From Microthyrium microscopicum (taxonomy: Eukaryota; Ascomycota; Dothideomycetes; Microthyriales; Microthyriaceae): a stretch of DNA of 64,000 bases. Shown here one piece after another: positions 36,569-59,439 of the stretch (position 1 is the first letter of the stretch; every line of letters begins with the position of its first letter). The position numbers and the translations under genes are program-made. The notes beneath the pieces were generated by a model that was not told where the DNA came from, searched no databases, and saw only the letters and a list, made by a program, of their open reading frames with translations. Location: positions 3,218,401 to 3,282,400 of the forward strand of contig MU004231.1 in NCBI GenBank assembly GCA_010405405.1, given 5' to 3'.

Positions 36569-37763
36569 ATAAACATGATACTAGTAGGCTGGATTATTGC
36601 CGTTTCTCAAGCCATGTCTTCACAGGTCGGCTGAAGAAGGCGAATTTACACACGAACGCATTCAACACCCAGCAGTTCGAGACCATGACATGTCTGGAGG
36701 TTGGAGCGTTTGGACCGCATAGCTACTTTGTTGAAGATGGTAACAGGTCAGACAGGCTCACTCGCTAAGTGTTGTAGAGACCTCTTACCTCCCATTAATA
36801 CTACCTGTTAGCACTGTCTCATGAACAGTCAGTTCCATGGATGAAATGAGTCGTACGATCTCATCAATGTCATCTGATATAGTGACTTTCAAAGAGCATG
36901 GTGAGACTTCATATCATACTTCATAGCTCGCTCAATCTCCTTCGCCCTCGTTGGAAGATAAACAAGTAGGTTACACGATGTAGCTGACAGCAGCTAGCCA
37001 AACTGATCGTGATACTGTCCAGGCCTTTATCTTGCCAAAGGCTTCGAACGTGACCCTATCAATTAAGTAGCCACTACGGTACTATATTCGTCCTCCTTGT
37101 GTAAAGTTGGATCGTACGTATAAGCCTCGCAGCTGTAAAGATGCTTGCATAACGGACAAGGGACTTTCACCTTGCATCTTGCGCATACATAACCGGACGA
37201 ACGACAAGATAACTGGCACGCCCACAGCAGCTACCTTCTATAACTAGGTGCTCTTTTAAGCATTGAACGCTCAAACGCCCATGTCACTTTCCAATGCGCT
37301 GTGATATCACGTACCTTCTGTTTGAGGAATGCCTTTGAATTGCTACTTGGAGACATTGGTTATCAAGTGCAGCGATCGACTTAGCGAAGCGGATCTTCGA
37401 GCTATCAATCTGAGTTGATGGGACCGCGCCATTTATTCTGTCGCCTAGTTGTACGATCAGCGCAAGACGAATACTCAGCGAACATTGAGCCAGTCAACAT
37501 TGGTATCACTTTCGAACATCATAAACTTCACTTCCTTCACAAGTGGAGCATAAAACCTCTGCTCCTCTGCACCCTCAAGAGCCCCAATCTTCCACTTACT
37601 TATCCTCAAAATCTCCTGCTTCGGCCTCTTACTCCAGCTTTATACAAGAATACCTTACCAACACGATTCCTTCTTCACCTATCTCTAGCCCTATCTTCTT
37701 TCCGTGGTCTTCTTAGGAACCACCGTTCTCATATTGGCTTTGTGCCTCATATCAAGGGATCAA
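36569..37763. other. spacer between F-box paralogues
   Basis: About 1.2 kb. Near 37413-37441 it contains GAGTTGATGGGACCGCGCCA followed by TTTATTCTGTC, a solo right end of the ~190 bp MITE family. The remainder shows nothing recognisable. Confidence 0.5.
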
Positions 37764-38989
37764 ATGAACGAACAAATGGCTGGATCGCAGGATTCAAACG
37801 ACTCCCCAGATTCAAGTATAGTCGCCGTCGCCACACATACCAATCCGAGCAGATCGCTAATGTTAGATCTAGCCTGTCATGAGTCGTTTCGACTCGCGGA
37901 TCTTCCCCTCGAGCTGCGCTGGGAAATCTACTCATATTGCGACAATAACACTCTGGCGGCTCTTCGAAACTCAAGCCGGCAGCTTCGTATGGAGACTGAA
38001 GAAGAAGCTTTCACTAAGCGACTCGTTGTCATCAACACTGCCTCTATCGAGGCTTATCTGCAGGAAAAGCTACATGGGAGAATTGCCTTTTGTGACCAGC
38101 AAGACTACAGAACTTTCGACAGATACAAAGCCTTGGACCCTGGACCAGAGATGACTGACAAAAACATTGCCGTCGACCTTGCTATCGCCCGTAAAGTCAA
38201 GTCACTGCTGTATCTGTCTCCAATATGTTTTCATTGTCGTCCCGGGGATATTTGCGCGGCATGTTTCACGCGATTGTACGTCATTTGCCGAAGACTATTT
38301 CCGAGCCTGGAGCAATTCAGAGTCATCGCCATATATGAGTCTTATGGGATGAGCTACGTCCACAACCGACTTCCACGGTCGCTTCCAGGCTTACCCGAAA
38401 GAATGGCTAAACACTACCATCATCCAGCAAAGATGACTTTCACTCAATACGAGTATTCTCCTGATATTATACGCAAGATTGGGGACAAATACTGTCTTCA
38501 AGAAACATTGTCAGATGAAGAAGAACGTGCGATTCGAGACTATACTCTTCAATTCGGATTTCTTGCGAAAGAAGCTCGGCAAGCGTATGCTGGGAAAGAG
38601 CTATACCTCAGATCCCAGGTTGCGAGGTCTAAAATTGATTTCAACTTGACCGTCAGAACGATATCTGATGCGATTAAATTGCCACATCTTGCCAGACCTT
38701 GGGCATTAATTGCGACATCGATTGAGGCCGAACGTGTGAGACGCTGGCGGACAGTGAGGCACGCAGACAAGGCGAAAGAAGTCGAAGAGAACCGACAGAA
38801 GCAGTTACAGAAAGGAAAGCCCGGAATTATGAAAATGTCCATGATGAAAATCCAAAAGCTCCTCCATGAACGAGAGAGCGCAGAGCAGCATGCTCGTAGC
38901 CTTCGTCACGCGATCAAAAAAGAAATGCACTCTGACCCTGAGTTTCAAGAAAAGTTGCAAAAACAGTTGGATGATGCTTCTACTTATGG
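37764..38989 (+). pseudogene. F-box paralogue 2, 5' part (split gene)
   Basis: ATG at 37764, F-box-like LADLPLELRWEIYSYCDNNT, LYVICRRLFPSLEQFRVIAI, QKQLQKGKPGIMKMSMMKIQ and SDPEFQEKLQKQLDDASTYG match paralogue 1 in order. Homology stops at about residue 409. The frame then runs into the A+T-rich block and ends at 39068 with about 25 unrelated residues. The missing C-terminus is found at 59082-59439. The gene is therefore split by a 20 kb insertion; what is left can make a C-terminally truncated protein with its F-box intact. Confidence 0.85.
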
Positions 38990-39023
38990 TCTAGATTTAT
39001 CTTACTTAGTTAGACTAGCAGCA
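38990..39023 (+). repeat. left terminal inverted repeat of the insertion
   Basis: TCTAGATTTATCTTA, then TTAGTTAGAC and TAGCAGC. It pairs with the right border repeat at about 59046-59081 with 29 of 35 positions matching, including two single-base gaps. Confidence 0.65.
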
Positions 39024-40020
39024 AAATTATGGCGTTTACTAGCGTATATAAGGATATACTCTAGCTAATTAGAGCTTATTCTACTCTCTCTAACTTTTTG
39101 CTATATAGTCTAAGAGACTCTTGTTTTATTTGTTAATATTTTAGCTTAACTTTTTAGCTTAATCTAAATATAATGGCGTCTTTTATAAAATAAGTATATA
39201 AATCTTAAAATTAGTTAAATTTAAGTTGTATAGAAGAAACTACGCTTTTAAATAAATATATTTTTAAGTTATCTATGCTTCTAGTTATTTTAGTAATATA
39301 ATTCCTATATGACTAAAAAAATTGCTAGCTTAGTTAACTTTTGCCCTTTTTTGCTTATTATTAACTATATAATAACGATATGATTTGATTACTTTAAAAT
39401 ATTACGTAGTGCTTTATAATTAGCTATTCTATTATCTTATATATTTATTTTTATTATAAAATAGTATAGTTATAGATTCCTATTTATCTTTTAGTTAATT
39501 GTATATTTAGTTAGACTAGGCCTTTTTTTTGCTAAGACTACTTGCTATAATCTATTCTGCTTACGTAAGTATCCTTGTAAGTTTTTATAAGTCTTTATAA
39601 GTCCTTAAATAGCCTATATTTATCCTTTATTACTCTTTTTAACTTTATTAGTATTCTTAGTAGTTATTTTTATACCTTTAGTAGTATATATAGCTTATAT
39701 TAGTATCCTTGCGTAATCTTTATAGTTCCTTACTTGTCCTTTGAATTAATTTAATAGCTTTAGTAATGTAGTAGCTTTAGTAAAGGGTTTATTTTAGTAT
39801 TCTAGTATTTTTATTGCGTTAGTATTTAGATAGCTTTAGTATTTTAATGCTAAGTAATTATATAAGAGTATTAGTAATATCTTTACTAGTCTTAGTATTA
39901 CTTTATTTAGTTAAAGAGGTTACTATAGTAATTTTATTATAGCTAAGAAATCTTATAAGTTTAAAGGTATAGCTCTTATTATCTTTACTTTATCTTTTAG
40001 ACTTAGTATTAGTATTCTTT

Positions 40021-40110
40021 ATGGCTTTAGTGTCTTTAGTATCTTTAGTGTCTCTAATATCTCTAGTATCTTTAGTATCTTTAGTATCTTTAGTTTCTCT
40101 AGGTATCTAG
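40021..40110. repeat. 9-bp satellite (TCTTTAGTA-like)
   Basis: About nine imperfect tandem copies of TCTTTAGTA, some with CTCTAGTA or TTTAGTGTC variants, inside the RIP block. Confidence 0.75.
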
Positions 40111-40740
40111 CTTATATAAGCATCTCTATATATCTTAGTATAATCCTTATTTACTCTTAGTAGCTTATAGTAGCCCTTTTTGATTAGTAGGTATAATATA
40201 TAAGTTAGTAATTATTATTATTAAATATTAATTATTATAAATATATACCTTATTATTAATGCTAACCTTATTATTATAGTATTATAGGCTAGATAAAGAA
40301 TAAGTAAAATAATTACTAGTAATCTATAAAACTAAAACTAAGACTAAGACTACTATAATCTTAGTACTTATAATTACTATAATAGGACTAGCCTAATTAC
40401 CTACTCTTATAATTGCCTAAACCTTATCTTCTTTAGAAATCTAAGAGGTTACTTAAAGCTATACGTACTGCTTTATAACTAGGATTAGTTAATGCTATTT
40501 ACGCCCTTATATAATTTATTTAAATCTAGCTATTAGCTAAAATATAAGAGTATATATTATAGTTATGCTTATAGAAGTTAACTAGCTATAACCCTTATCC
40601 TAGATAGGTTAGGGCCTTAAGGTTTCTAATATATAAGAGCTATAATATCTTGCTTATTACTTATACTAGATAGAGTAAGAGTTTAATACTATATAACTTT
40701 TCTATATTAATAGAAAAGATTACTTTATAGCTAATTCCTA

Positions 40741-41540
40741 TAAACTAATTAGGGGATAAATAATTTAATAGTATCTTAGCTATCTTTAGGTCTAAGCCTA
40801 TTATTGTTTATAGCGAGACAATAACCTAGTTAAAGGATATTGCTATTAATATTATGTTTAGTTAGTATACCTATATATTAATTTTACTAGAGACTACGTT
40901 TAGTAGGCTCTTTTGTAGTATGTTAAGCAATTTTATCTTTTAGAATAGGATTAGAATAGTTGCTATTAATAAATGCTACTTAGTTAAATAATAGTAGGAT
41001 TTTAGGTCTTAGTTTGCTATAATTTATAAGCTTTATATAATACTATACTAGGATATTATATAGTTTAGTTATACTAGCACCTTAAGTTTACTTATATAAT
41101 AGTTTATTCTTTATTATAGTAGATTCTAAGAAGAGGGACTATATAAATAATAAACTATTATTATATACTCCTTTATTAACCATTAGGATGTTATAATCTA
41201 GTTTAAGCCTATACTTAAGTAAAGGTTAGTATCTTTTAATAAACTCTATTAGATCTTAGATGCTATAGTTAACTCTAAGGCTAGGAAGGCTACTCTTAAG
41301 TTAATTAAAAAGACTATTATATATATTAATAGTAGATTAAAGATCTATACAATGTTAAAATACCTTTAGGCTACTTTAGTTAGTTTAACTAAGAACTTTC
41401 TAGAGGACTAGTAGTATACTTACTTTAATAAGGATAGCGTACGTTATATCTATAACCTTATTTAAGAAATTACTTTTATTATCCCTAGCTATAATAAGAT
41501 AGTTTGGTACTAAGAATTTAAGCTTCTAGGTTCACCTTGT
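40741..41540 (+). pseudogene. degraded protein-like frame 1 in the insertion
   Basis: One plus-strand frame (first bases at 41059, 41062 and so on) reads as protein-like sequence, broken only by TAA/TAG. Segments such as SKARKATLKLIKKTIIYINS and RYIYNLIQEITFIIPSYNK are long and charged. RIP of CAA/CAG or TGG codons would create just these stops. TGA is rare throughout this block because TG is depleted, so its absence is not independent evidence. No family recognised. Confidence 0.4.
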
Positions 41541-41809
41541 TAAATTATAATTATAACTATAAGCCTAGGACTTAGTATTAATATATTAGATATTATATTA
41601 ATTATTATTTAGAGGTTCTTAATACTATATAGTTTTATAGATCTATGGTAGCGTATAGGTTATAGTAGGCGTAGTTATAGGTTATTTAGTATTGCTATAG
41701 TATTTCTTTCGTATTAAATATTTAATATATTTAGATAAGAATAACTTAATCTATAGAAAGGTATTTAGGTAAGTTTACTAACTATTTAATTTATCTAGGT
41801 TATATTTTC

Positions 41810-43290
41810 TTTATATAGGACTTAAAATTATACGCTACTTTAATATTAATAACTTTGTATTTAGGATAGGGCTAGTTTAAGTATATTGTAGCTTAAATTG
41901 CTATTTAATAATAGTAATATTAAAAGTAAAGCTAGTACTGCCTTATAAGTATTTACTATTATATTTATTACTTCTTAAGTATTAGTTATAGATATATAAG
42001 AAGCTAATATATTACTAGATAGTATACCTAGTTTAATTCCTCTATTTTAGTTTAGAGTTAAGGTTAAAACTTATAGTAGAGTCTTACGTAAATAGTTTAT
42101 TATTATAAATTATTTAGACTATTTTTAAGAAGCTATCCTCTATGAGCTAGATAAATTCCTGCCCTAGATAATAGATTATAATTCTATACTAATTTTAAGG
42201 TATTATAATAAATACTATCTAGATAAGTTTTGTAAATTAGTTTAGTTAGTGTTTTTACTACGTAAGTAGGCTTTAAATAAGAATAGTTGTAAGGCTATTA
42301 TAAGAACGTAATTATAGGTCTAGTCCTTAGTAGTAAAAGAAGCTATGTGTCTAGAGGATAATTATAAGAGTAAATATTCTTAAGGTAAAGACTAGTTGCT
42401 AGATAATGATTTGATTAGGTAGCTAGCTTATCTTTACGCTACTAAATTTCCTTTTAATACTTAGTATTTTACTTAAGATAAATTATATATACGTATTTTT
42501 AATTTAGTTAATTAGACTAATACTATTATGTTAAAGGGAAAGCTATTATTTATCCTTTAAAAGCTAGAAACTATTATTAAGTAGTTATATAAGGATGCCT
42601 ATAAGGCTAATTATTTAGTACGCCTTATGGCTAAGGAAGTAAAGCTCTTAAAGAAAATATAAGTTATAGCGTTATAGTTAGAGTCTTAGTTATAGTTACT
42701 TATATCGTCTTAAACTAGTAATCTTTAGCGCTAGGTTCTTAAGAAACTAATAGATAATGAGTTAATATAAGAAAGGGCTTATAGAGTATAAGAGGAAGAT
42801 AAAAGGGTTTATTTGTTTATAAGTTAGCTAATTAGATATATGTTTATCCTTATTAGTTTATTTAGAGGTTCTATGTTAATAAATATTCTAACCTTACTAT
42901 TTACTAAGTATTAGTAGGATATTACGAATTTAGATAATAGTAATATCCTAGATAAATATAAGGGATTTATAAATACTAATTCTAAAGATAATAAAGAAGA
43001 TATAGACGATAATTTATTTAATTAGCTAATACCTATATTAAATAAAGATAGTATTACTCTAGTTACTACTCCTTATACTTATTACTTAACTTATACTTAA
43101 TAAAAGAGTTATTTGCTAAGCTAAGACTTATTAAGCTAGTTAATACTACGTTATTATTAGATTAGGGCTAGTATAAAATAGTCCTTACCTATAATCTTAG
43201 AGAGAAATAGTTTAACTACTACTATTAGGAGGACTATAAGAAAGAGTATAAAAGAGTATTCTTCTTAACTAACGAGAAGAGGATTAAAGA
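41810..43290 (+). pseudogene. degraded protein-like frame 2 in the insertion
   Basis: About 490 codons in one plus-strand frame interrupted only by TAA/TAG. The content looks like a lysine-rich helical protein, for example SRVLRKQF, GKDQLLDNDLIRQLAYLYAT (reading stops as Gln) and LVRLMAKEVKLLKK. It probably represents an element-encoded protein inactivated by RIP. It could not be matched to a transposase, reverse transcriptase or DUF3435 recombinase by eye. Confidence 0.42.
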
Positions 43291-43858
43291 TAAGTAAGAA
43301 GATGTTGCGTTTAATATTAGAGTAGGTTAGACCTAGTGTATAATTCTAAATATTTAGTTTTTTAACTATTTTATCTACTTAGGTATTATAAGGAACTATA
43401 TAGGATTATATAGGATTCTAAGGAGTAGGTAGGTATAGTTATATAAGCACTATATTTTATATTTTTAGTTTAGAGGTTTATAAATATTAGTATTTAGAGT
43501 TCTTATCTATTATAGGCGTTATGTTCTTCTATATATATTTATAGTATATTATATTTATTAGTTTGTTATAACTACTTTGTTTATTTATTATTATTATAGT
43601 ATCTTTAGTAAATAGATATCTAAGCATTAAGCCCTATTACGAAGCCTATATATTATAATATACATTATAAAGGAGGCTCTTTATAAGTATAATAATAAGG
43701 ATGAATTTACTAGTCTATATAAGATTAGTAAGTATATTAAAGTATTCCTAAGACGTAATAGGATATTACTATAAGTATTAGTAAAACTTAGATAGTGTCC
43801 TAACTTAGATCTATTTAAATATAGTATATATATTTCTAGGTAGGAAAGCTATTTTAGC

Positions 43859-43996
43859 GCTTAACTTCTCTATATTGCTTAGTATTATAATGATGCTTAG
43901 CTTCTTTACGTTGCTTAGTATTGCTATAACGCTTAGCTTCTTTACGTTACTTAGTATTACTATAGCGCTTTGCCTCTTTATGTTACTTAGTGTTGC
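43859..43996. repeat. 36-bp tandem repeat, 4 units
   Basis: Units start at 43859, 43895, 43931 and 43967 (GCTTAGCTTCTTTACGTTGC type). Thirty-six is a multiple of three; on the minus strand the units read as a charged 12-residue repeat close to NTKQRKEAKRYS if RIP stops are read as Gln. Confidence 0.75.
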
Positions 43997-44595
43997 TTAC
44001 TTACTAGTTTCATTAAGTAATAGAAACTAGACACTATAATAAGAACTAGATATTAGAAAATCTAATAGTAAGTAGACTTTACTTAGCTAAGGCTTATACT
44101 TTAATCCCTTATACGTAAAGCTAATATGGCTAATTGTTAATAGCTTAAGTACTTTACTTTTTAACGTTATAGGTAAAGACGTAAAGTTAAGTAGGTTTAT
44201 TAGAAATTAGTATTAAGAAATATTTAGTATCTTGCTATTTAACTACTTAGAAGGTATAGTTTGTGTACTAGCCTTTAAGAGCCTATTAATTATTCTTAGT
44301 TATGAAAATAGTAATTAAGTTATATTAAGAGATATAGCTATAGTTAAGGTACTACCTAAAGAATAATACAGTTTAGAGTATAGAGTTAATATCACTAGTA
44401 GTATTAAATCTACGCTAAACTTTAGTAGATTAATTATTAGGCATATTAACATTATTAGGCGCGCTAACATTACTATATATTAGAAAGTACTAGTAGTAGG
44501 TATTTTTATTATCTATTTTATTCTTTAGCAGTATACCTTACTCTTTAATAAAGACTTTCTTACGAATTATTATAATATTAATAAACTTTTATAGG

Positions 44596-44680
44596 ACTCT
44601 ATATTATTAATTTAGTAGGATAGAGCAATTATAGTTCTATAAAGCTAGTTTATGTTCTAGCGTTAGCCTAAAGTAGATAA
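44596..44680. repeat. dispersed copy of the 88-bp repeat
   Basis: ACTCTATATTATTAATTTAG through TTCTAGCGTTAGCCTAAAG matches the tandem 88 bp units at 51847-52080, 7 kb away. Confidence 0.7.
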
Positions 44681-46169
44681 TAAACTTAGTTACTCTAATA
44701 CTTATTAAGGAATATTAGAAGGAATATAATATAGATAGCTAAATAGCTTATTGCCTTCTACTATTAGTAACTTGTTATATTATAGTAGTTCTTTATTAAG
44801 AACCTTTCTTATGTATATTTTCTTAATATTGTTACTACTTTACTAAATCTTTATTATAAGGATAGAGAGGAGTTTTATTAGACTCTCTTTAAAGGTAGCA
44901 TATCTATTTAGATTAAAATTATTAAGTTATATAGGAATAGTATATATTATTAGCGTAAAGAGTTAGTCTTTAAGCTAGTAGTTATTTAAAGTTATAAAGA
45001 TTATAATTTTGATATAGTGTTTAGTCTAAAAGATAATACTATATAAATCTATATTAGCGTTTTATAACGTATTAATAAATAAAATATTATATAATACGTC
45101 TATTTTACTAGTCTAGGTAGAGGCTAGGTTAAGTAAGGATAATATAGTAAGCCTAGGTATTCCTTTTTAGGTAATTAATACGTTAGTAGAATATATCTAA
45201 TAGATTTTTTTACTAGATATAATATACTCTTTACTCGTTACTATTCTAGTTATACTTTATAACTAAATAGTATATATATAATAAGTATAAACTATATAGT
45301 AACTTTTGCTATATATTTAACTATTTATAACCCTTTATAATTAATTAAGGCTACTAATATTATAATCTTATTATCTTAATTAGGTAGTAGTAAGAACTTT
45401 ATAAAGTGCTACCTATTATGTCTACTACCTAAATGGTATATCCCTTATTATACTAGATATATTCTTTTCTCTTCTTTATCTTTATATACCTTTAGGTCTT
45501 CTTTTAAGCAGTTTTCTTTATACTTAACTAGATTACTTTTAAGAAGGTATAGCCTTAGGTCTTTGTTATACCTTTTTAATATAACTTTTAGGCTATTAAT
45601 ACTTTTTATATACTAACTAATTCTATTCTATTTCTTTTATTAGATAAGGGCCTTATAGAAATATAATAAGCTAATTAGGTATTACTAAATTAAGTAATTA
45701 TAACTATTTAATAGCTAATACTCTTAGTTAGACTAAGTATTTAAAATAGTAAGACTATTATATTATAGTCTTTTTAAAGCCTTTATGCCCTTTAGCTTTT
45801 AAACTTTAACTTCTTAACTTTATAACTTTATATACTTACGTCTTTTGCTATCTTTAAAAGAAAGATGTACTCTTAATACTATCCTATACTTAACGTATAT
45901 ATTATCTTTACTTATTAGCTATCTAATAGTCTCTTGCTATCCTAGCTTATTAAGGAGGTAAAGTTAATTCCTTATAGCGTACTACGCTAAAAAGGTAAAT
46001 ATATTTATCTAGAGAGTAGAATTTCTAGTTATATTATAAAGCGTTATAACTTTAATAATTTATAAGTTCTAGTATATTGCTTATAGATATTAGTAGTAAT
46101 AATTATAGTTAGTAAGTTAAGTTTAATGCTTGCTAGGCTACTTACTAAGCTTGTTTAGCTATACTTATT

Positions 46170-46560
46170 AAGTAAGAAGAGAGTCCCCTTTTTGTTTTAG
46201 CTTCTCTTATATTTAGCTCGCCTAAGCTATCTCTTTCCTTAAGTTTGCCTTTTAATTTTAGTAATAATAAGCTAATAGACGATAATAACGATAATAATAA
46301 TAAAGACGAAGAAGACGATAAGACTTTCATTAATCCTAATCTTCTCTCTCCTCTCGCTCTTATCCTTACTAAGGCTAAGTATAACGTGCTTATATAAAAA
46401 TTTAACTTTAGCTTAATAGCTAGAATTAACCTTAGCTAGCTACGTTTTATAGCGATAAAGCTAAGTCTAGACGTAAAGCGCTCTACTATACTTAATAAAT
46501 AATAGTCTTAGACTACTAAGAAGTAGGACGTCTTAATATTTTAAAAAAAAAAAACTATAT
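46170..46560 (+). pseudogene. degraded acidic protein frame in the insertion
   Basis: A plus-strand frame from AGTCCCCTTTTT reads a Ser/Leu stretch, then an Asn/Asp/Glu run (LIDDNNDNNNKDEEDDK), then KAKYNVLI, FNFSLIARINLS and LDVKRSTILNK, with TAA/TAG only after the first ~75 codons, before an A12 run at about 46543. Probably a RIP-damaged coding exon; product unknown. Confidence 0.35.
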
Positions 46561-46921
46561 AGTAATATTAGCTATATAATAAAGATGACTTTTAGTAAAC
46601 GCATATTAGATATTGCTACGTATTTAGCGTATATTAAGTATAGGTAAGAATATTAGTAGTTTATATAGAAAGTAAAGAATACATAGAAGAATTTTAGAAG
46701 TTATTATACTTATTATGTTATATTTCTTAAAGACTATACCTTTAGAGATAATTATTATAAATTTAAAGGTAAAGTTATAGAGTATAAGACTTTAGGTAAA
46801 TTATTTAGTTTATAAACTAGTTAAAAGATAGAGGTTTAGGAAGTAGTAGTTTAGAGTAGGTAATTAGTATAGAATAGCGTATTAACGTATACTTCTCATA
46901 ATGATAGTAATTACTTAAGTA

Positions 46922-47150
46922 TTTAGTGTCTTATGCTTCCTTTACGATTATATTATTTAATTAAGTTCTATAAGAAGTAAGTAGGAGTTGCTTTGAAAGC
47001 TATGAGTATCTTATAAGATATATATTATAAGGATTATAGGCATGTTTAGTATTCTTTAATATCTTTATAATTATATCGTTTAATTAGGTTCTATAAGAAG
47101 TAAGTAGGAGTTGCTCTAAAAGCTACAAGTATTCTATAAGGCGTGCGTTA
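46922..47150. repeat. 113-bp tandem duplication
   Basis: Two diverged units share TTCTATAAGAAGTAAGTAGG followed by AGTTGCT (at 46976 and 47089). Differences are mostly C/T and G/A, as expected from RIP. Confidence 0.7.
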
Positions 47151-48151
47151 TAAGCGTTATAAGTATATAGTAATATATTATAGTTGTTTAAATTAATTAT
47201 ATTGGGTGTATTAATAATATTATTCTTATCGTCTTATTATCTATTATATGCGTTATAATATAAACGTTAATATTAGTAAATAGTTAGTTATAAATAGGTA
47301 AAGTTAGAAAATATACAATGTCTATATAGCTAATATATGCTTTACAGAACTATAGGATATGCTAGCCTAAAATAAGTAGTTTAGTATTTTATTAGACTTT
47401 ATAACTAGTTAGGTATTAGAAGGGTATATTTAGTAGGATATAGGATATCTAGAGATAATTAGGTAATGTTAAGAATCCTAAAGGATGTTAATTTTAGGAC
47501 TAGCTATTATTACTATACTCTTATAATTAAAATAATATAAACTTATAAGCTAATAATCTAATTTATTAACTTAATTTGCTATACTATCTTTTACCTTATT
47601 CTTTTAATTTAATAGTTATCCTAGTATACTAAGCTATTATATTGCATTATCTTTAGTTTGTCTATTTATCTTGCTACTAAAACCTATATTCTTATTAATT
47701 ATAGCTCTACTAATACTAGAACGCTATCTGCTTTATTCTTTAAAGGTATTTAAAGAATAATAATAGATAGCTTATATTCTTTTTTAGCTTTAGTACTAGC
47801 TTTTAATAGGCTATATTAAATAGAAACTACCTTTACTATTATACTTACTAATGTACGTATATATTAGCCTTTATTATATATATTTAGGCTATGCTATTAA
47901 ACAAAAGGATAGGAACGTTAAATTATTAAGGGATAGTTATTAGTTTAATTAATAGAGAAACTAAAAAGGTAACTTAATAGTAAAAGCGTAAGGTTATAGT
48001 AAGTATTATTACTCTTAATATAGTAGCGAGTAATAGCTAAATTAGTATAAATATATATAGTATATAGTTTAACGCTAGAGGGTAATTTACTATATTATAT
48101 CTATATAGTAATATTTTAGCTATACTTAGCTAGTAATGATTAGTTCTACTA

Positions 48152-48363
48152 TTTAGTAATAATAGTAGGTATAAATATTTAGGCTAAAAAAATATATATT
48201 ATTATTAATAAATAAGATAGCTTAGAATAATATAAGGCTAAGAAATAGGTAGAATAGTTTAGTAATAATGGTAGGTATAAATATCTAGGCTAAAAGAATA
48301 TATATTATTACTAATAAATAAGATAGCTTAGAATAATATAAGGCTAAGAGATAGGTAGAATAA
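48152..48363. repeat. 106-bp tandem duplication
   Basis: Two nearly identical units starting TTTAGTAATAATRGTAGGTA at 48152 and 48258. They are more alike than other repeats in the block. Confidence 0.8.
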
Positions 48364-48504
48364 GATAAGTTTATATCTTATAAGTATTTATAATAAGTAT
48401 TAAAATATAAATATTATAATCCTTTAAGCACTTTATAAAGGCTTAATTGAGGTATGTACTCTTATTGCTAAACTATAGTATACGAACTTTATAATTAAAC
48501 TAGA

Positions 48505-48605
48505 CTATTATAATTCTTAAGGAGTAGAAGGGCTAGACTATATAGTTTTTAAGGAGAGGAAGGGCTAGACTATGTAGTTCTTAAGGAGTAGAAGGATCTT
48601 TAGTA
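48505..48605. repeat. ~36-bp imperfect tandem repeat
   Basis: TTCTTAAGGAGTAGAAGGGC units, with GGGCTAGACTATRTAGTT in two of them, three copies. Confidence 0.6.
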
Positions 48606-51426
48606 AAAGATGCTAATATTAACTTAGGTTATTAGGTTATTATTAGTAACATTGACTTTAAAGTCTATAACTAAATATTCTTTAGGATAATAGTAAATAT
48701 TTATTATGCGTAGCTAGTAAATATTTATTAGACTATAAATACTTTATAGTATAATTGTTAGGTTCTAAACGTAGTAGAGTCTATAAATATATAGTGCTAT
48801 AGAGTTTTTGTAGATATTAATATATATTAATTAAATATTATTACTATATTTAGTATTTAAATGTTATAGTATCTTTAGATAGCTTTATTAGATAACTTTT
48901 AAGCTATATAGGACCTAAGTAGCTACTTATACTAGAGACTTATAAGTTTAAGGCCTTCTACTTAATTAGGATTATAAAAGTAAAGTTCTTATATTTATTA
49001 ATTAGAGTTACGCCTTTTTTAATAAGGTTCTAGGGTTAGGATAAAGTAATTATATAATTAGCAAAATATATTAATTAATATTAAGTTAGTAGGTAGATAT
49101 CTACTTAGAATAAAGCTAAAATTATTTTAGCTTATACTTATTGCTCTTAAGTCTTATCTACTAGTATTATATTTATCTATATAGGTTATTTTTAATAGGC
49201 TATAGGAATAACGTATCTTTTTATAAAATATTCTAGTAATAAATAGTTTTGTCTTTAGAGTATAAAAGGAGATATTTACCGTTAGGATAAAATATTAGTA
49301 TATAAATCTAGTTATTATAGCTAATAAGTATTTTAATTAGTGTTTCTCTACTATCCTAAAGCTTAATAAGCTTATTATAACTAATAGTAAGAATTTAGGT
49401 AAGCTAACTATATAAGGTTATAAGAATTAGGCTTAAGGTAGTAAATAGTAGTAGATATTAGTAGTTAGTAAAGTTTAGAATATAGAGAGTTAAGTAACTT
49501 AGAGATTTTGCTATAAAATATTAGAGATTATAGTTAGATTATAATAATATAAGTATACTTACTCTGCCTTGCTTTACTTATACGTACCTTACTTTGCCTA
49601 AATATAGCTAAATGCTTTATAATTAATCTTTTTAGGGTTAGTCTATATTAAACGTTGTTTACTAAGATTATAGATACTTAAAGTTTAATTATTAGCTTTT
49701 TATAAATTCTACTTAAGGGATTATTAGCCTATAATAAGTAGGTATAGAATATAGCCTAAAGACGCTATATATTCTAAGTAAGGCCTTTCTATTTATATTA
49801 AGATAGCTATATATTATCTACTAATAAAATAAAGAGTTATAAGTAATTTAGTAAGCTATTACTAGTTTATATACTTAATTATATACTAAGTAGCTATCTA
49901 CTAGATAAGGTTACTTTATAAGTAGTACTTAGTTTATATTAATAACTATATAAGTTTATAATATTAAAGAAAAGGTTAAGTCTAAATAGTTTCTTAAATA
50001 TGGCATTAAGATGCCTAGGCTACTTATTTATAATTAATAGGCTATATATATATTATCTAATAAAAATTAGAAGATATTATATAGATTACTATAATATAGT
50101 TCTTAAGCTCTCTATTAGTTAAAATATAAAGGTTAGTTGCTAAATATTAACGTAAGATAATAGAGTAGTATTATCTTAAGTCGCTATAAAGAAGTAAAGA
50201 TATTAATTAGATTAAGTAGATAGGTCTTAATATAATAAGTAAAGAATGCATCTATAAGATGAACTTAATAGTTTAATAATAGGAAGTAAAGAAAATATAA
50301 GTTAGATTAAGTTAATGTAATTTATACCTTAATTGCTATATATTTAGTAGATATTTAAAATAGAGTATTTTTTAGAGGTATAAACTAATAGGATAACTAA
50401 CTATATATAGGTATAATATAAGTATACTTACTTATCCTATTGTATTCCTATCTATATTATAGCTAATTATTATTTAAAGTTTACTTATACTAGTTTATAT
50501 GCTACTACTATTTAGGATTATATTTTATTTATATATTTCTTAAATAATATAATCTTATACTATATATATATACTTTAGTATAGAGATTTAGTTTGACTTA
50601 TATATCTTAATTATTAACCTATACTATAATATACTACTATTATTTACCTTATTGCTACTCTACTTATTTATCTAATAGCTTATTTTAAATATAACGCTAT
50701 CTAATTATTATTCTAAGTAGTTAAATGTATACTATAAAACTATACTAGAATATACTAATTAAAGCTTAATTTTCTATTGCTCTATTTATCTATTGCGCTA
50801 ACTTAAAGTAATATCTATAATATTATTCTAAGTAAGGAAGATTAATACTATATACGTTAAGCTATACTAATAGTGTAAAAGAATAATATAAGGAAGATAA
50901 GTTAATATTAATATTAATATAAACTCTTATATTTAAGATACTAGTCCTATTAACTAAGTTTATAAGATCTTACCTATTACTATAAGCCTAGAAGGAAGTA
51001 CTTATTTATTATGTCTACTTTTAATATTATAACGGAAGGTTAAAGGCTTGCTTCTAATTTTAATTATCTTATAATAACTTTTTTATAATAAATAGCTAGT
51101 AGTTATACTTATATACTATCTTCTTATCTAAAGCTAAATAAGGCATATAGTAGTAGGTACTTAATGCTAACTACTTTGTTTTATACTTCTTTATAAGTTA
51201 GATATAGGAATAAGTTTGCTAAATTAATAGGAAGGAGAGGAAGAGAAGGGGGTTATACTCTAAGTATTATAAGAGACTAGATTAATATTTAGTTTTATAA
51301 TATAAGCTTTAAGAACAATCGTAGCTACTAAATGTAATAGATACATTAAGCTAATTTAGTAGTTGCCTAATACTAATATAATTAACTAATTAATACTTCT
51401 AGTAGCTTCTTTCTTATTTATAATAG

Positions 51427-51720
51427 CTATATTTAGATAGGCTATAACTAAAGCTATTATAGTTGCTAATGTAAGTACCTTTTCTATAATAGCTATACTT
51501 AGATAGGCTATAACTAAAGCTATTATAGTTGCTAGTGTAAGTACCTTCTTTATAATAGCTATACTTAGATAGGCTATAATTAAAGCTATTATAGTTGCTA
51601 GTATAAGTATCTTCTCTATAATAGCTATATCTAGATAGGTTATAACTAAAGCTATTATAGTTGCTAATATAAGTACCTTCTTTATAATAGTCGTACCTAG
51701 ATAGGCTATAATAAAAGCTA
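51427..51720. repeat. 66-bp tandem repeat, 4.5 units
   Basis: Units start at 51427, 51493, 51559, 51625 and 51691 (CTATACTTAGATAGGCTATA type). Sixty-six equals 22 codons, so the array could once have encoded a repeated peptide. Between units mainly transitions occur. Confidence 0.85.
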
Positions 51721-51846
51721 TAATAAAGGTATTACTAAAAGTAGTAAAGTAAGCTAGCTTACCTTAAGGGTATTAATCTTAAGTACTAGGAGCTATAGAG
51801 GAGTACGCATAATATTATAGTAAGCGCTTCTAAACTTATATAGGTT

Positions 51847-52080
51847 TCTATACTATTAATTTAGTAGGATAAAGTAATTATAGTTCTATTAAGTTAGTTT
51901 ATGCTCTAGCGTTAGCCTAAAGTAGGTAATAGACTCTATGCTATTAGTTTAGTAGGATAGAGTAATTATAGTTCTATAGAGCTTATTTATACTCTAGCGT
52001 TAGCCTAAAGTAGGTAGTAAACTCTATGCTATTAATTTAGTAAGATAGAGTAATTATAGTTCTATAGAGCTTATTTATGC
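51847..52080. repeat. 88-bp tandem repeat, 2.7 units
   Basis: ACTCTATGCTATTARTTTAG units at 51933 and 52021 and a diverged one before them; a dispersed copy is at 44596-44680. Confidence 0.78.
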
Positions 52081-52319
52081 TTTAGTAAAGGCGCTATAAG
52101 TAGATAGTATAAAGGAAAAAGAAGAAGAGAAAGATAAATAAAGGAAGAAAGATATTTATATTCTATAGACCTTTAAGAATTTCTCTTTAAGTAAGTTTAA
52201 ACCTAATATTATAAGGGTAGTGTTAATCTTTTTAGGAAGTAGCTAGGATATGCTTATAATAGACTTTTAAGAAATACTACTACTATTAACGTGCTAGGCT
52301 TAGGCTAAAATATTAAGGC

Positions 52320-52650
52320 TATTAGCGTACTTTAGTACTACTAATATTAAAGCTATTAGCGTATTAAGGTAGTTAAGTCCTTAAACTTAAGGAAGTAATA
52401 GTAGTAAAAGAACTATTAAAGACTAGAAGACTAAATAGTAATTAAAAGTAGTAAGAAGTATTGCTAGCGTACTTTATTAGTAATATTAAGGCTATTAGCG
52501 TATTAGAGTAGTTAAGTCCTTAAACTTAAGGAAGTAATAGTAGTAAAAGAATTATTAAAGACTAGAAGACTAGATAGTAACTAAAAGTAGTAAGAAGTAT
52601 CGTTAGTGTGCTTTACTACTAATGCTAAGGCTATTAGCGTACTAAAGAAG
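52320..52650. repeat. 139-bp tandem duplication
   Basis: GTTAAGTCCTTAAACTTAAG recurs at 52372 and 52511 with the surrounding GCTATTAGCGTA and GACTAGAAGACTA blocks; a third partial unit follows. Confidence 0.75.
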
Positions 52651-52953
52651 AAGGAAAGAAGAAGAGGAAGAAGAGGGAGGGTTAAAGGATTACTATATTT
52701 TTATTACTAATCTTCTAATTAATTTGGTATGTTCTTTCTAAGGATTACTATACTCTTATTATTAATCTTTTATCTTAATCTAGTAGAGCTAAAGCTTAAG
52801 ATAGTAAAGTACTTAGACTTACTAGGAAAACTTGCTCTTTATATTCTTTTTAAGGATTACTATACCCTTATTATTAATCTTCTAACTAATGTGGTATTCT
52901 TTATACGCTTTATAGCTAGAGTACTTGTATTATAATATTAAATTTATTGTCTT

Positions 52954-53092
52954 ATAGAACGTAAGCTTCTATTTTAACTAGGTAGATATAGTTCTTAAAT
53001 CTATTATTTTAATAGAACGTAAGCTTCTATTTTAACTAGGTATTCTTAAATTTGCTATCTCATAGAATGTAAGCTTTTATTTTAACTAGGAG
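52954..53092. repeat. three spaced 29-bp copies
   Basis: ATAGAACGTAAGCTTCTATT and following TTAACTAGG at 52954, 53012 and 53063; the third copy differs by C-to-T changes (AATGT, CTTTTA). Confidence 0.75.
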
Positions 53093-55019
53093 GTTATTCT
53101 TACTACTAATAATGCTACTTATATAGGTATACTTACTGAAACCTATTAATATCTGTATATCTATATATATTCTAATATATAGGTTATAAATAGAAGGAAT
53201 TACTACTAAGGTATTTAATTAAAATGATAGTAAATATTGCCTACATTACTTATAATAGGGGACATTATCTATCTTAAAAAGCTAAGAGTAGCTACTAGTA
53301 GTAAAAAGACTTGTAAGATAGTATAGTAAGCTTATCCTTCTAAGTAAGATAGCTAATTTAGCGCCTAGATATTCCTAGCGTCTAAAAGGCTTATAGAATC
53401 CCTAATAGTTATTAATACTTATTATAACGTGTAGTATTAAGAAGGTATTCTTTATAACCTACTCTTTTAAGTGAGATAGTTAACTTATACGCTTATTAAT
53501 TCTTATATGCTAGCGTAATTTATAGTACTACTCCTTTTTAATTAAAGCTTTGCTACGATTAGAAGGTATCCTTAGTAAATCTACCCTTCTAAATAAGATA
53601 GCTAATTTAGTATCTAGATGATCTTGCTGCCTAGAAGGCTTATAGAAATTCGTACGTTTATTAATACTTGTATGTTAGTATAACTTATAATACTACTTAT
53701 TCTTAATAGAATCTTGCTACGCTTAAATTTGTACTTATCGTTAAGTTGCTTTAAGACGTATATAAAAAGCGTTCTAGTCTTATAAGGTTACTATTAAATA
53801 TTAAAATCTTACCTCCTAAATAAGGCTTGAATACTTAAACTTTAACTATCTTTTTTTAGTATAGTATAGAGTAAGGACTTTAGTTGGCTAATTATTATTA
53901 TTATTAATAGTAAAAATTATATCTATAATAATATAGAGAGTATTAAGTACTATAAAAGCGTTCTATTTAGGCTTTAGTAGGTTATTAGTGTTATTATTAC
54001 TATTTAGTACTTAAACCCTTCTCTTTTAAATTAGATAAGAGTACTTAAACTTTAACTACTTTTATTTAGTGTAGTATAGAGTTAGTAGGTGTATAGGCTA
54101 TTAATATTATTATTACTATTTAGTACTTAAATCCTTTCTTCTTAGATTAGATAAGAGCTTCTAATATAGGAGTAGTATTTAATAAACTATTTATGAAAGT
54201 AAGTCTTTCTATATATTTTCTTATGTATTCCTACTAATAGAAATAGCTAATATAAATAATTGTAGACAACTTAGGTAATAAAGACTTATAAGCCTTTAAT
54301 GCTACTTACGTAGGTTAACTTCTAGTTAGTTATCTATAGAACCTTATTATTATTAAGATAAGAGTAGCTATTATAGAGAGTATAGTACTTATTATTAATA
54401 ATATATATGTAAAAGAAATCTAGTATATAAGTATACTATTTAAGATTTATAGAACTATTAGTATTAAAGACTAGTGCTTAGGTAATTATTATATAGATAA
54501 ACTTTTAGAACTTTAGAAATTTATAGATAGAGCAATTAGTAAACTAGTTAAGGCTAAGAAGATATAGTGCTAAGTAAAGGATTATAGTATAGTAGTCTTA
54601 CTTAATATTATATATAGTAAAAGAATTAGTAGTAGGGTAGTTAGATATCTAATAAGTACTTAAACTTTAACTACCTTCTTTTAGTATGGTATAGAATAAG
54701 GACTTTAGCGTGTCTTAGTTATAATATATAATACTAAAGGTAAGTAAGTCTAAAGTAATAGGATAGTTATAGTTTATAACTTAGTTAGCGTCATAATACT
54801 TACTACTAATAATATTAAAGATAAGTAAGTTTAGAATAATTAGATAAATGCTAGTATTATAATATAGTTAGTATTATAATACTTACTACTAATTATATTA
54901 AAGGTAAGTAGATTAGGAGGAAGGTAATAAATCTTATTTACTATATTGTTAGTATTGCTATACTTCTTATAAAGGATAATACTTAATATAATAGAAATAC
55001 GTAAGGAGTTACTTAGATT

Positions 55020-55165
55020 GGCTTAAAGGTTAGTAAGAGAGACTTAGATATTATATTTAGGCTTAGTAAGACTAAGCTTAAATTGGCTTAAAGGTTAGTA
55101 AGAGAGATTTAGATATTATATTTAGGCTTAATAAGACTAGGCTTAGATTAGCTTATAGGTTAATA
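55020..55165. repeat. 65-bp tandem repeat, 2.2 units
   Basis: GGCTTAAAGGTTAGTAAGAG units at 55020 and 55085 with a third, more diverged start near 55150. Confidence 0.75.
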
Positions 55166-57481
55166 AGATAGATAAGATTAGTATTTATTATAGTACTATA
55201 TCTATATTACTTATAGATAAATAAATATTTAAAACTAATTAGATTAGAATAGGTTTATGAATAGGAAGGGTAAAGGTAGTTATAGGTAGGGTAATGTAAG
55301 TTATAAGAGCTCTTTAGAAGTTAAGGTAATCCCTAAGTTGTAAACTAAAAATAACGAATTACTAACTATACTTATTAATACTTAGTTAGCCTAATAAGCC
55401 TCTAAATAACTCTTTGCTAATAAGTAAATAGATTTAATAAATTAAGTCCTTTTATTATAATAAATATATATAATTAAATTAACTTAAAAGTTTAGGTTAA
55501 AGTTTATTACTATCTCTAAAGTTACTAAACTTATCTTTCTCTTTAGTATCCTAAGCCTAGGTATAATTTACTACTATACTAGTATTAAACTTTAGCTTAA
55601 CGTCTCTACTACCTTTAAGTATTATATATGCTTAACTTAGAATTACTATATGTTTTTTATTAAACGCTTTTACCTTACTAGTAAGCATTATAGCCCTAAG
55701 TGTTTATATATTTTAAGAGTTGTAATTATTTCCTTTAATTTAGATAGCCTTTAGAAACTAACGCTCTATAAAATTGCCTTAAATTAAAGTATTATATATT
55801 ATATTAATGTTATGCTTTATAGTAGTAATACTTCTTGTACTAGATATATATTTACTAAATGAGCCCTTTAGTATAGCTTTTAACTTTCTGCTATAACTAT
55901 TTATAAGGTATATATAATTAAAAGTAATATGAATATTATGGGTTGAATTCTTTTAGGTCTTTATGTCTAGTTTTGTACTACTATTTATATATTCTAAGCT
56001 TAAATCTATAGCCTTATAACTATGTAGTTTACTAAGCTAGTTAACTAGGCTAGAAGCTAGTATAGCGCGTTATAACTTTAGTTTATTAATAGTATCTAGT
56101 ATATTCTACTTAAGCTATATTATCTTATTACTATAATTATTAGAACTAGACTTATAGAACTAATATATTATAGGATTAATTAGCTAATAAAGTAAACTAA
56201 CGTCTATATATTTAATAGCGTGTTTTAGTATTAATAATAGGTAGATCTTTTATATATATTAATATAATGTCTAGAACTAAATATTAACGTCCTTTAGTAT
56301 TATTGTACTACTTTCTTTGTTTTTATATAAACTAGTCTAACCTTCTACTTAATATATAAGAATTTGAATGTCCTAGATAATTTTAATTACTTAATTTACT
56401 ATTAACGTTTTAATAATGTCTCTTATAATTGTATTATCTACTAGTACGTTAGAAGTTATATTTAGAGGGTAGTGTTTATAATAGCGTAAAGTAAGCTTAA
56501 ATAAGGCTAAGTTTTAAGTATTAAATACTTATTATAGAATAGGTTCTAGCTTATGTAACTAAATAGACTAGCGTATTTTATTCTTTAGATAACCTTAAGT
56601 AGTAATATTATGCTTAATAGAATATAGAGTATGCTTATAGTAGTTAATAGGTCCTTAATAGCTTTTTATAATGTTTTCTCTAAGGCACTTTTAAGTATAG
56701 AACTACCTAATAACTAGATAAAGCTACTCCTTTCTATTAAAGGCTAGAGATAAATAAGATTGCTTAGATTTAATAGCTTAATTATTCTTTATACTAAGTT
56801 AATTTCTATATATAAGAAATAAGTAGTAGGCAAATATATAAGGTTTACTTATTAGGAAGTTAGTTAGCTACTAATATTAGTAGAAGTTTATACTTAATAT
56901 ATCTATTTTATCTAAGCTATATTTTAGAAACTTAAGTACGTTTATAAAGATCTTATAATATATATTATATATACTATTTATAGTACCCTTATTTTTAAAT
57001 ATACTAGCAAGCTATTAATATTTAGTTTTAATTAGGGGAAGTTAATTAAGTTATAATTATACTAATTTCTTCTTCTTATCTTTCTTATTACTAAATATCT
57101 CCTTAAGTTAAGTCTTAAAGGTAACTTAGAGACTTTAATATATTAAGACTTCCTTAATAGCATTAGCTATAGGTTTACTAATTATGTATTCTTTATAAAG
57201 AAGTAAGTTTATAATTAAGCGTAAAGGTAATTTATATATTAGATTATATATATCTTAAGTTAAACTACTAGGTAGATAATAAGAATATCTAACTATAGTA
57301 GCTATAGTTAGATTTTTTATAATATAACTATAGCTAATCCTCTTATTTTGAACTTAATCTTTGTAGTTAAAGTTATTATATATAAGCGCTAACTAAGGAT
57401 TATAGGCTAAGGTAGTAAGCTATTTTTATAAATATATAAGCGTAAGGTTGTAAACTAACTATAAGATACTAAAGGCTACTA

Positions 57482-57655
57482 AGGATAGTTATAGAATATA
57501 TAGAGATGCTTATATAAGTATTCTAGTGTTTATATTTTGTAGACTATAGATATTAGGAGGCCTATACGATAAGTAAGGGCTTATAAGAAGGAGTAAGGAT
57601 AGATATAAGATATATAGGAATGCTTATATAAGCATTCTAGCGTCTATATTTTGCT
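57482..57655. repeat. 114-bp spaced duplication
   Basis: AGGATAG.TATA.GATATATAG and AGTATTCTAG/AGCATTCTAG blocks recur at 57482 and 57596. Confidence 0.65.
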
Positions 57656-59045
57656 AGAGGAGTAATACTAGAAGGGTCTTATAGCGATATATAAGCTATT
57701 ATAAGAGGTAATAAGGGATAATAAGGGTTATAATAATACTAGAATAGGGTATTTTATTAGTAAAAACTTAGTAAGCTAATCTATAACCTATACTATATAG
57801 TAATACTTGTAGTAAATACTAAGTATACTAAAAGTCTATATTACTTTCTTTTTAACGCTAGCGTAATAAAGATATATACTTAGAAGTATTAATATTATAT
57901 TAGACTTTTAGTAATTCTAATGGCTATATACTATAGTAGTAATAAGAAATATAATTAGATTATTAGTATTTATAGACTATATTTTATAAGAACTTTAATA
58001 GCTTCTACTATGCTATATAATATTATAATAAAAAGTAACTTATTAAGGAGCTAGAAGTAATAGACGCTTTATACTTGTTAGAAAGTTAATTAAATTAGGA
58101 TTCTTTTTGTAGTTAAACTGCCTAAACTATAGCGTTCTTAGAAGTTATTATAACTTAGTTATAAAGCTATTAGGATGATAATTACCCTAGATCTAATTTA
58201 TAGAGTAGTAAGTACTAAGTATATTACTTAAAGTAGACTAACGACTCTTAAGAATTAAATAGTATTAGTATTATAGAGTAATAGTATAATGTTAGTTATC
58301 TATATTTACCTAAGTATCTAAGAATTTAGGAAAAGTTTAAGAGATTAAGTATAAATAAGAGAGTATAGATTCTAGTTTTAACTTAGTAGTAAGTCGTAAG
58401 CTATGCTATTAAGGTAATAGATAGTAATTATTATCTTTATCTTAATTGCTATCCTCTTTTTTTGTACTTAATGCGCTACTAGACTAATAGGGCGTAGAGA
58501 GAAGAATTGGAGGTAGGCTAGAGAGTCTTAGTACTAGTAATGTATTCTTTATTAATAAGAGAGGCGATATAGTAATAGGAGGTAGGGTTGATTGTCTTTT
58601 TAATTAAAACTATTGCTCTAGACGCGTAGGAAGAGTCCTTAGTTATTAGTTTAAGGGCCTAAGTAAACTAATAGAAATAGGGCTATAATAAGGCTAATGC
58701 TTAGACCTAGTATAGCGCTTTTAAGTAAATATAGTAAATTTAAATAATAGAGAAAAATAAGGTAAGTAAAGTGATATAAAAATAAATATAAATATATATA
58801 TAGTTATAGAGATAATATAATTTAAAAAGTGCGTATTCTTTTATATAAAGTTAATAGGGCCCTTACTAAAATAGAATAAGAGTTACTTAGATATAGTAAG
58901 CTGCTTTAAAATTACATATGTCCTAAAATATCTAATTAGCTAAGGGTAAGCTAGGTTCTATATAGAATAGCTAAGGATACTTAGTCAGTAAGAGCTAAAG
59001 GCTCTCTAACTAAGTAGGGAGCTAAAGGCAACTTGTTTTTAAAGT

Positions 59046-59081
59046 AGCTTGCTACGTCTAAGAAACTAAGATAAGTCTAGA
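59046..59081 (-). repeat. right terminal inverted repeat of the insertion
   Basis: Reads, reverse complemented, TCTAGACTTATCTTA, then TTCTTAGAC and GTAGCAAGC, pairing with the left border at 38990-39023. Confidence 0.65.
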
Positions 59082-59439
59082 TAGTGTAGGTCTAAGAATC
59101 TAGTCCTATCATTACCATGACTTGAAACAATATCCTACAGCGAATGACTTGATCACCATGATTTTGGAAGGTAGACCAAATATTATCCTTGACAAGGACA
59201 TAAAACTACAGCAATCCACCATGTTGGCCCAGACACAAAATCTCGATAAAGAGAGAGATATGGGACATGAGTACGATTGGGTAGAGTCAGAAAGTCGATG
59301 GATCTTGAGAATTGAAGTCCGATCCACAGCATCTGGTTATTTTCAGCTCAATGGGGATGGCCCTACCCTCCGTATGAAATGGCATGCTCCCATTCATTCC
59401 GATATCCGCCCTCGAACTTTGGAACGACAAGAAGTGTGA
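59082..59439 (+). pseudogene. F-box paralogue 2, 3' part (split gene)
   Basis: From about 59104 the plus frame reads SYHYHDLKQYPTANDLITMI, then a Lys/Gln-rich stretch and GHEYDWVESESRWILRIEVR. This matches the C-terminus of paralogue 1 (YHHYLPGGKV.PSAATNLINM and GDYGWSQTEQRWFMR). Just upstream, one TAG at about 59100 interrupts the frame where a CAG would fit RIP of flanking host DNA. After the homologous part the frame continues through ATGAAATGGCATGCTCCCAT, which resembles the end of the ~190 bp MITE family, and stops at 59437-59439. No promoter or start of its own is evident. Confidence 0.78.

Follow-up and report, generated by a model that had tools for sequence, protein, structure and literature searches.

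A giant terminal-inverted-repeat element in Microthyrium microscopicum, with DUF6589 as its candidate transposase

Introduction

What is the long AT-rich interval that interrupts a host reading frame in the fungus Microthyrium microscopicum (assembly GCA_010405405.1), and which gene might have moved it there? The interval lies in a stretch of 64,000 nucleotides (contig MU004231.1, here C2:3218401-3282400), called the window below; the analysis covered the one genome to which it belongs, 36.9 Mb in 20 contigs. A preliminary description, made from the letters of the window alone, had proposed a single DNA-transposon-like unit of about 20 kb bounded by inverted repeats. We found one mobile element at window positions 38997-59074 (20,078 bp), a member of a dispersed family, A; a second family, B, has related ends. 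Both families display exact ends (TTATCTYA...TRAGATAA), 8-bp target site duplications (TSDs) and insertions scattered over the genome; both include short elements, and in both a DUF6589 gene reads inward from the same end. Taken whole, these observations are best explained by an undescribed superfamily of giant terminal inverted repeat (TIR) DNA transposons with DUF6589 as the presumed transposase, an explanation that we consider probable.

Ends of the element

When aligned, all six long copies of family A start with TTATCTYACTTAG and terminate in the complement of TTATCTYAGTTTC; the window copy itself starts with TTATCTTA and ends with TAAGATAA. Because the six copies share their first and last bases, the element must run from 38997 to 59074, and not from 38990 to 59081 as previously given. 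The features of its ends are as follows.

38997..59074, no strand assigned: whole element, family A, saturated with repeat-induced point mutation (RIP), GC 20-28%; from the common ends in six long copies, GC and RIP indices
38997..39020, + strand: left TIR, TTATCTTACTTAGTTAGACTAGCA; from the alignment of copy ends
59050..59074, - strand: right TIR, TTATCTTAGTTTCTTAGACGTAGCA; from the alignment of copy ends
38989..38996, + strand: left TSD, GTCTAGAT, exact
59075..59082, + strand: right TSD, GTCTAGAT, exact
58881..58911, + strand: inner arm (approximate position) of a subterminal inverted repeat, with its outer arm at about 59037-59067

The subterminal repeat was recognized from one query stretch that matches twice, in opposite orientations, in the copies on C9, C3 and C4. 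The TIR is imperfect: in a hand alignment of TTATCTTACTTAGTTAGAC-TAGCA with TTATCTTAGTTTCTTAGACGTAGCA, 21 of 25 columns agree, with one gap. The inverted repeats originally reported at both borders are real, and the termini of five other long copies fall on identical bases. The inner part of the reported motif does belong to the repeat, but its outer TCTAGA lies in the 8-bp TSD and seems inverted because GTCTAGAT is nearly palindromic. The agreement had also been set too high, at about 29 of 35 positions: with TCTAGA and the next base added we counted 27 of 32, and the best ungapped 35-mer reaches 23 of 35.

The best ungapped 24-mer of the two edges, duplication included, agrees at 20 of 24 positions, a value that 2 of 2000 random internal pairs also reached. 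Taken alone, the terminal repeat is only moderately unusual; the other copies settle the matter. Ordinary AT-rich, RIP-hit repeat DNA with chance repeats at its edges could appeal to those two random pairs, but ten family A elements share the ends and have 8-bp duplications, and their identity collapses outside. The other copies thus refute chance inverted repeats and leave such an origin a vanishingly small probability, in line with the earlier remark that the interval is not random heterochromatin.

At the left edge (39.0 kb) GC falls from 0.46 to 0.23, and at the right edge (59.1 kb) it rises from 0.27 to 0.43. Within the interval, TA/AT ranges over 1.40-2.20 and (CA+TG)/(AC+GT) over 0.09-0.44, and the window copy differs from the C12 copy by 2069 transitions versus 385 transversions. 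The window copy is saturated with RIP-type mutations and dead.

Copies of family A in the genome

A genome search with the right edge returned five other places plus three minor self-inverted matches, and a search with the left edge returned nine. The window copy has five long partners, each on a separate contig, with edges 20-50 kb apart. The preliminary description had suggested looking for paired termini, and such pairs occur: beside the 20,078 bp of the window copy they span 20,005 bp on C16, 20,462 on C12, about 28,100 on C9, 30,300 on C4 and 49,500 on C3. The surplus length in C9, C3 and C4 is additional DNA, which in C4 is largely N; overall, the C16 copy contains 7,659 N and the C4 copy 15,475, in long runs. 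In the main aligned blocks, identity with the window copy is mostly 77-91%, with a low of 72%. Across the 15 copy pairs, mean identity over the last 20 bp inside the ends is 0.94 on the left and 0.95 on the right, and over the 40 bp outside it is 0.26 and 0.28, which is chance level. Similarity among the copies therefore does end at the repeats, the point on which the earlier proposal had been staked, and the proposed single unit of about 20 kb is borne out by the common ends, the 8-bp duplication and this sharp loss of identity.

Four short elements with A ends, of 976, 994, 1009 and 1012 bp (on C6, C7, C8 and C1), carry exact 8-bp duplications. Their similarity to the long copies covers some 170 bp or more at the left end; at the right end, only the terminal repeat was seen to be common. 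The pattern TTATCTYACTTAGTYAGAC, the first 19 bases of the left repeat, has 12 genome matches at up to two mismatches and none in the reversed control; the ten exact matches correspond one to one with the ten A elements, six long and four short, and the other two have two mismatches. A pattern search for relatives among viral contigs gave five matches, none of them confirmed.

Target site duplications and the host site

The target duplication, which the preliminary description had left to be read, is 8 bp long and present at both flanks of the window copy. In the 17 insertions tested in both families, 12 duplications are exact, four have one C/T difference and one has four differences. By family, the long A copies account for two exact duplications, three with one C/T difference and the C4 pair with four differences, while all four short A elements are exact; seven of nine B pairs were tested and all have the duplication (six exact, one with one C/T difference). 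Leaving out C4 and reading the remaining 16 duplications from both sides, the outer position is G/C in 26 of 32 cases and the central position A/T in 24 of 32.

Removing the element and one duplication in silico rejoins the host open reading frame (ORF) except for one stop codon, a TAG at codon seven beyond the joint, after which 111 codons are open. RIP leakage could account for this stop. A Pfam scan of the host ORF found no family above cut-off.

37704..38996, + strand: left part of the host ORF interrupted by the element; frame open from 37704
59083..59439, + strand: right part of the host ORF, beyond the element; its seventh codon after the joint is TAG

Family B

Family B elements have ends related to those of A and are mostly about 30 kb long. 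Their right end, TTATCTYAGTTYTYAGAC, has 11 genome matches (8 exact, 3 with one mismatch), two of which are one end doubled around a gap in the C6 assembly. For the C14 copy, the duplication TGGTCCTG led to the opposite end; this sequence has two exact genome matches, one of them correctly placed and oriented on C14; at up to one mismatch there are 17 matches in the genome and 10 in the control. The C14 left-end sequence, used in turn as a pattern, yielded 11 B left ends and none in the control. Nine pairs resulted: six of 29,585-30,625 bp (two on C2 and one each on C5, C6, C13 and C14), a short element of 723 bp on C1 with an exact duplication, and two enlarged elements, which presumably grew by nested insertions.

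C2:404682-477948: enlarged B element, 73,267 bp
C2:3583243-3662504: enlarged B element, 79,262 bp

Eight other B elements, including the one on C11, have a match of 70-80% identity to a 1-kb segment from the interior of the C6 copy, so family B is colinear there. The C6 copy (C6:1228613-1258780), of which 22.4 of 30.2 kb was read, is flanked by the duplication GCTAGTTG. At C6:1228613-1228907 the B end is present twice (95 bp identical) around 10 N; the matching 8-bp duplication occurs only at the outer copy, which suggests that the inner flank is an artefact of assembly. The 8 bp flanking the artefactual second end have four one-mismatch places in the genome, none at the C6 end. The part read has a GC of 36-58% and at most a mild RIP-type composition, despite related interiors elsewhere, and this copy may be a late arrival or a RIP escapee.

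The DUF6589 gene

A six-frame Pfam scan of the window copy, with stops written as X and the translations cut into 12 pieces of 3333 aa, returned a single family at E<=1, DUF6589. The match to PF20231 lies at 55863-57167 (-), with E=1e-12 and 47.9 bits against a gathering cut-off of 27, and tblastn with an intact relative recovers the remnant at 55653-56837 (E=3e-30).

55653..57167, - strand: DUF6589 gene remnant (candidate transposase), oriented inward from the right end
57803..58180, - strand: possible upstream exon of the same gene, a weak match (tblastn with exon 2 of the intact relative, E=0.006)

A profile search of the genome gave at least 12 DUF6589 matches, which make up at least 11 loci, and none in 14 control genomes. 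Each listed locus lies inside an element, four in family A and seven in family B. DUF6589 was detected in 12 of the 14 long elements, namely five of six in A (C16 by tblastn) and seven of eight in B, and in both families it sits at the same end and reads inward. The C6 copy of family B has an intact ORF of 778 codons (C6:1230121-1232454) as well as upstream exon-like frames, with a plausible start codon 216 bp from the terminus. Its protein scores 211 bits to DUF6589 and matches no other Pfam family at E<=10. The C6 stretch has 188 stop-to-stop frames of at least 60 aa, 133 within the element; of all these, the DUF6589 frame alone has a family A match at E<=0.01. Three observations lead us to infer that DUF6589 is the transposase: it keeps the same position at one end, it occurs in almost every long element, and no other shared gene was detected. 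Mushrooms and corals have many DUF6589 proteins, an abundance that would be in keeping with a mobile element.

A six-frame Pfam scan of 16.8 kb of the C12 copy gave nothing significant. A sub-threshold Rrp44_CSD1 match (E=0.13) in the six-frame scans of the C2 and C12 copies was discounted.

Other features inside the elements

Inside the window copy, a 61-nt inverted repeat (80%) pairs 40111-40171 with 57458-57518, roughly 1.1 and 1.6 kb from the ends; its arms are possible subterminal binding sites. Four tandem repeats lie in the interior; the B copy on C6 has tandem repeats as well.

48152-48362: tandem repeat, 106-bp unit
51347-51742: tandem repeat, 66-bp unit
51831-52111: tandem repeat, 88-bp unit
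52336-52613: tandem repeat, 139-bp unit

Two stretches of the C6 copy each match a single place outside the B elements found: C6:1245407-1245515 matches C12:1314575 (109 bp, 85%) and C6:1245793-1245957 matches C3:94600 (165 bp, 86%). The former overlaps a faint similarity to PIG-L that stays below the cut-off (E=0.036). Both stretches are possible captured host exons. Two ORFs of the same copy, L053:2323-4170 (-) and 6870-7547 (-), have a weak likeness to DUF3716, below the Pfam cut-off, and are possible cargo genes.

Discussion

Copies with common ends at dispersed sites, a duplication with a constant length of 8 bp and the existence of short elements together show transposition by an enzyme that recognizes both ends and cuts its target with an 8-bp stagger. 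In the mechanism we propose, the DUF6589 protein would bind the terminal repeats, excise or copy the element and join its ends to the staggered target cut, and the elements of about 1 kb would be moved in trans. RIP would afterwards change C to T at CpA throughout these repeated copies and turn them into AT-rich islands without open genes.

The lineage is likely undescribed, since literature searches by the names DUF6589 and PF20231 gave nothing relevant: no paper was found that names DUF6589, none among the titles and abstract openings listed describes the element, and PF20231 returned only an unrelated paper, in a search that had most subscription journals and Repbase outside its reach. Within that literature, the earlier suggestion of an undescribed large fungal TIR element holds, and DUF6589 can now be named as its candidate transposase.

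The more specific claim is that DUF6589 is the transposase of an unrecognized superfamily of giant elements (20-30 kb), with TTATCTYA ends and 8-bp duplications, that can capture host gene fragments and spawn short non-autonomous elements. We believe this somewhat more than we doubt it. Several observations weigh against the explanation as a whole. Even at E<=10 the intact protein shows no likeness to any known transposase family, sequence searches against PDB gave nothing meaningful, and the predicted fold of the mutated window fragment was unusable, with a predicted local distance difference test (pLDDT) score of 43. DUF6589 was undetected in the C4 copy, which is mostly N there, and in the B element C2:1939493-1969395. 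The C4 duplication matches at only 4 of 8 positions, all differences being transitions. In family B, the right-end pattern has one match in the reversed control, one right-end match (on C10) has no assigned element, and the left ends on C11 and C8 are single ends without a tested partner, although C8 is probably a short element of about 719 bp because a fitting right end appeared in the TGGTCCTG search.

Finally, about 16 kb of the 20-kb element has no recognized content, so another gene could be the transposase. The element would then be real and DUF6589 a passenger or accessory, with the true transposase erased by RIP within this unexplained DNA. DUF6589 alone is recognizable, Pfam scans of RIP-saturated DNA can miss domains, and the C6 copy of family B offers further ORFs, among them the two DUF3716-like ones, and 7.8 kb that was not read. 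However, the only gene detectably shared by A and B is DUF6589, at the same end, inward, in 12 of 14 long elements, and none of ten other ORFs tested in the C6 copy matches a transposase. We therefore regard a passenger role as unlikely and DUF6589 as the better candidate.

A length of 20-30 kb is unusual for a TIR DNA transposon, and it is the transposase that defines a superfamily. Tying DUF6589 to complete elements with defined ends and duplications gives this family a testable role and provides a means of finding more such elements. It would also account for some of the large AT-rich islands in RIP-active fungi that have the look of featureless heterochromatin. If DUF6589 is indeed the transposase, DUF6589 proteins elsewhere would mark unannotated mobile elements.

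Comparison with known systems

Shared ends in six long and four short A elements and in nine B pairs, together with a fixed 8-bp duplication, are traits of TIR (cut-and-paste type) DNA transposons. For the DDE/D-type transposase of that class the candidate here is DUF6589, detected in 12 of 14 long elements, although it matches no solved or known transposase. Starships, Polintons and hAT elements, considered for their size or TSD, were rejected for lack of the corresponding domains or for ends or TSDs that do not fit.

The size of 20-30 kb would suit a Starship or a Polinton/Maverick. Starships, giant elements of fungi, likewise measure tens of kb and carry a single mobility gene, the tyrosine-recombinase captain, near one end and reading inward. 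What sets the elements described here apart is their clear TIRs, a TSD fixed at 8 bp and the occurrence of short elements that share their ends; in the B copy, moreover, the gene at the terminus is DUF6589 and no captain. The DUF3435 captain domain had no match in the C2 copy or in the part of C12 that was scanned (16.8 kb), although RIP might conceal one in either. Polintons have a 6-bp TSD, as against 8 bp here, and encode a protein-primed DNA polymerase B and a retroviral-type integrase; six-frame scans of the C2 copy and the 16.8 kb of C12 and the tested C6 ORFs (from the part read) gave no match to either, although RIP could hide one. An origin of either kind is very improbable.

A further possibility is a known superfamily with 8-bp TSDs (KDZ/Zisupton, hAT, P or Merlin) whose transposase has diverged too far for Pfam. 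TSDs of about 8 bp are made by hAT, P and Merlin alike, and short non-autonomous copies, as seen here, are common in hAT. In contrast to the CAGNG ends and nTnnnnAn duplications of hAT, however, the termini here are TTATCTYA and the TSDs are G/C-rich outside with an A/T-rich centre. No hAT domain was found in the intact terminal gene, the C2 copy or the 16.8 kb of C12; RIP could hide one in the latter two. KDZ/Zisupton elements have TIRs and 8-bp TSDs and occur in fungi (PMC12730594). The elements here resemble them in both respects, but the intact protein matches DUF6589 only, even at E<=10. The KDZ transposase domain PF18758 had no match in the genome or the intact protein, in a genome search that matched no control genome either. 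On this evidence we give a diverged member of a known superfamily little credence and favour an undescribed one.

Also comparable is Sly1-1 of Neurospora, an 11.5-kb CMC-type element with a transposase and a second gene, with mutated and unmutated copies coexisting (PMC4592977). Like the elements of M. microscopicum it is a large fungal TIR DNA transposon; unlike them it uses a CMC transposase, and it is about half the size of family A.

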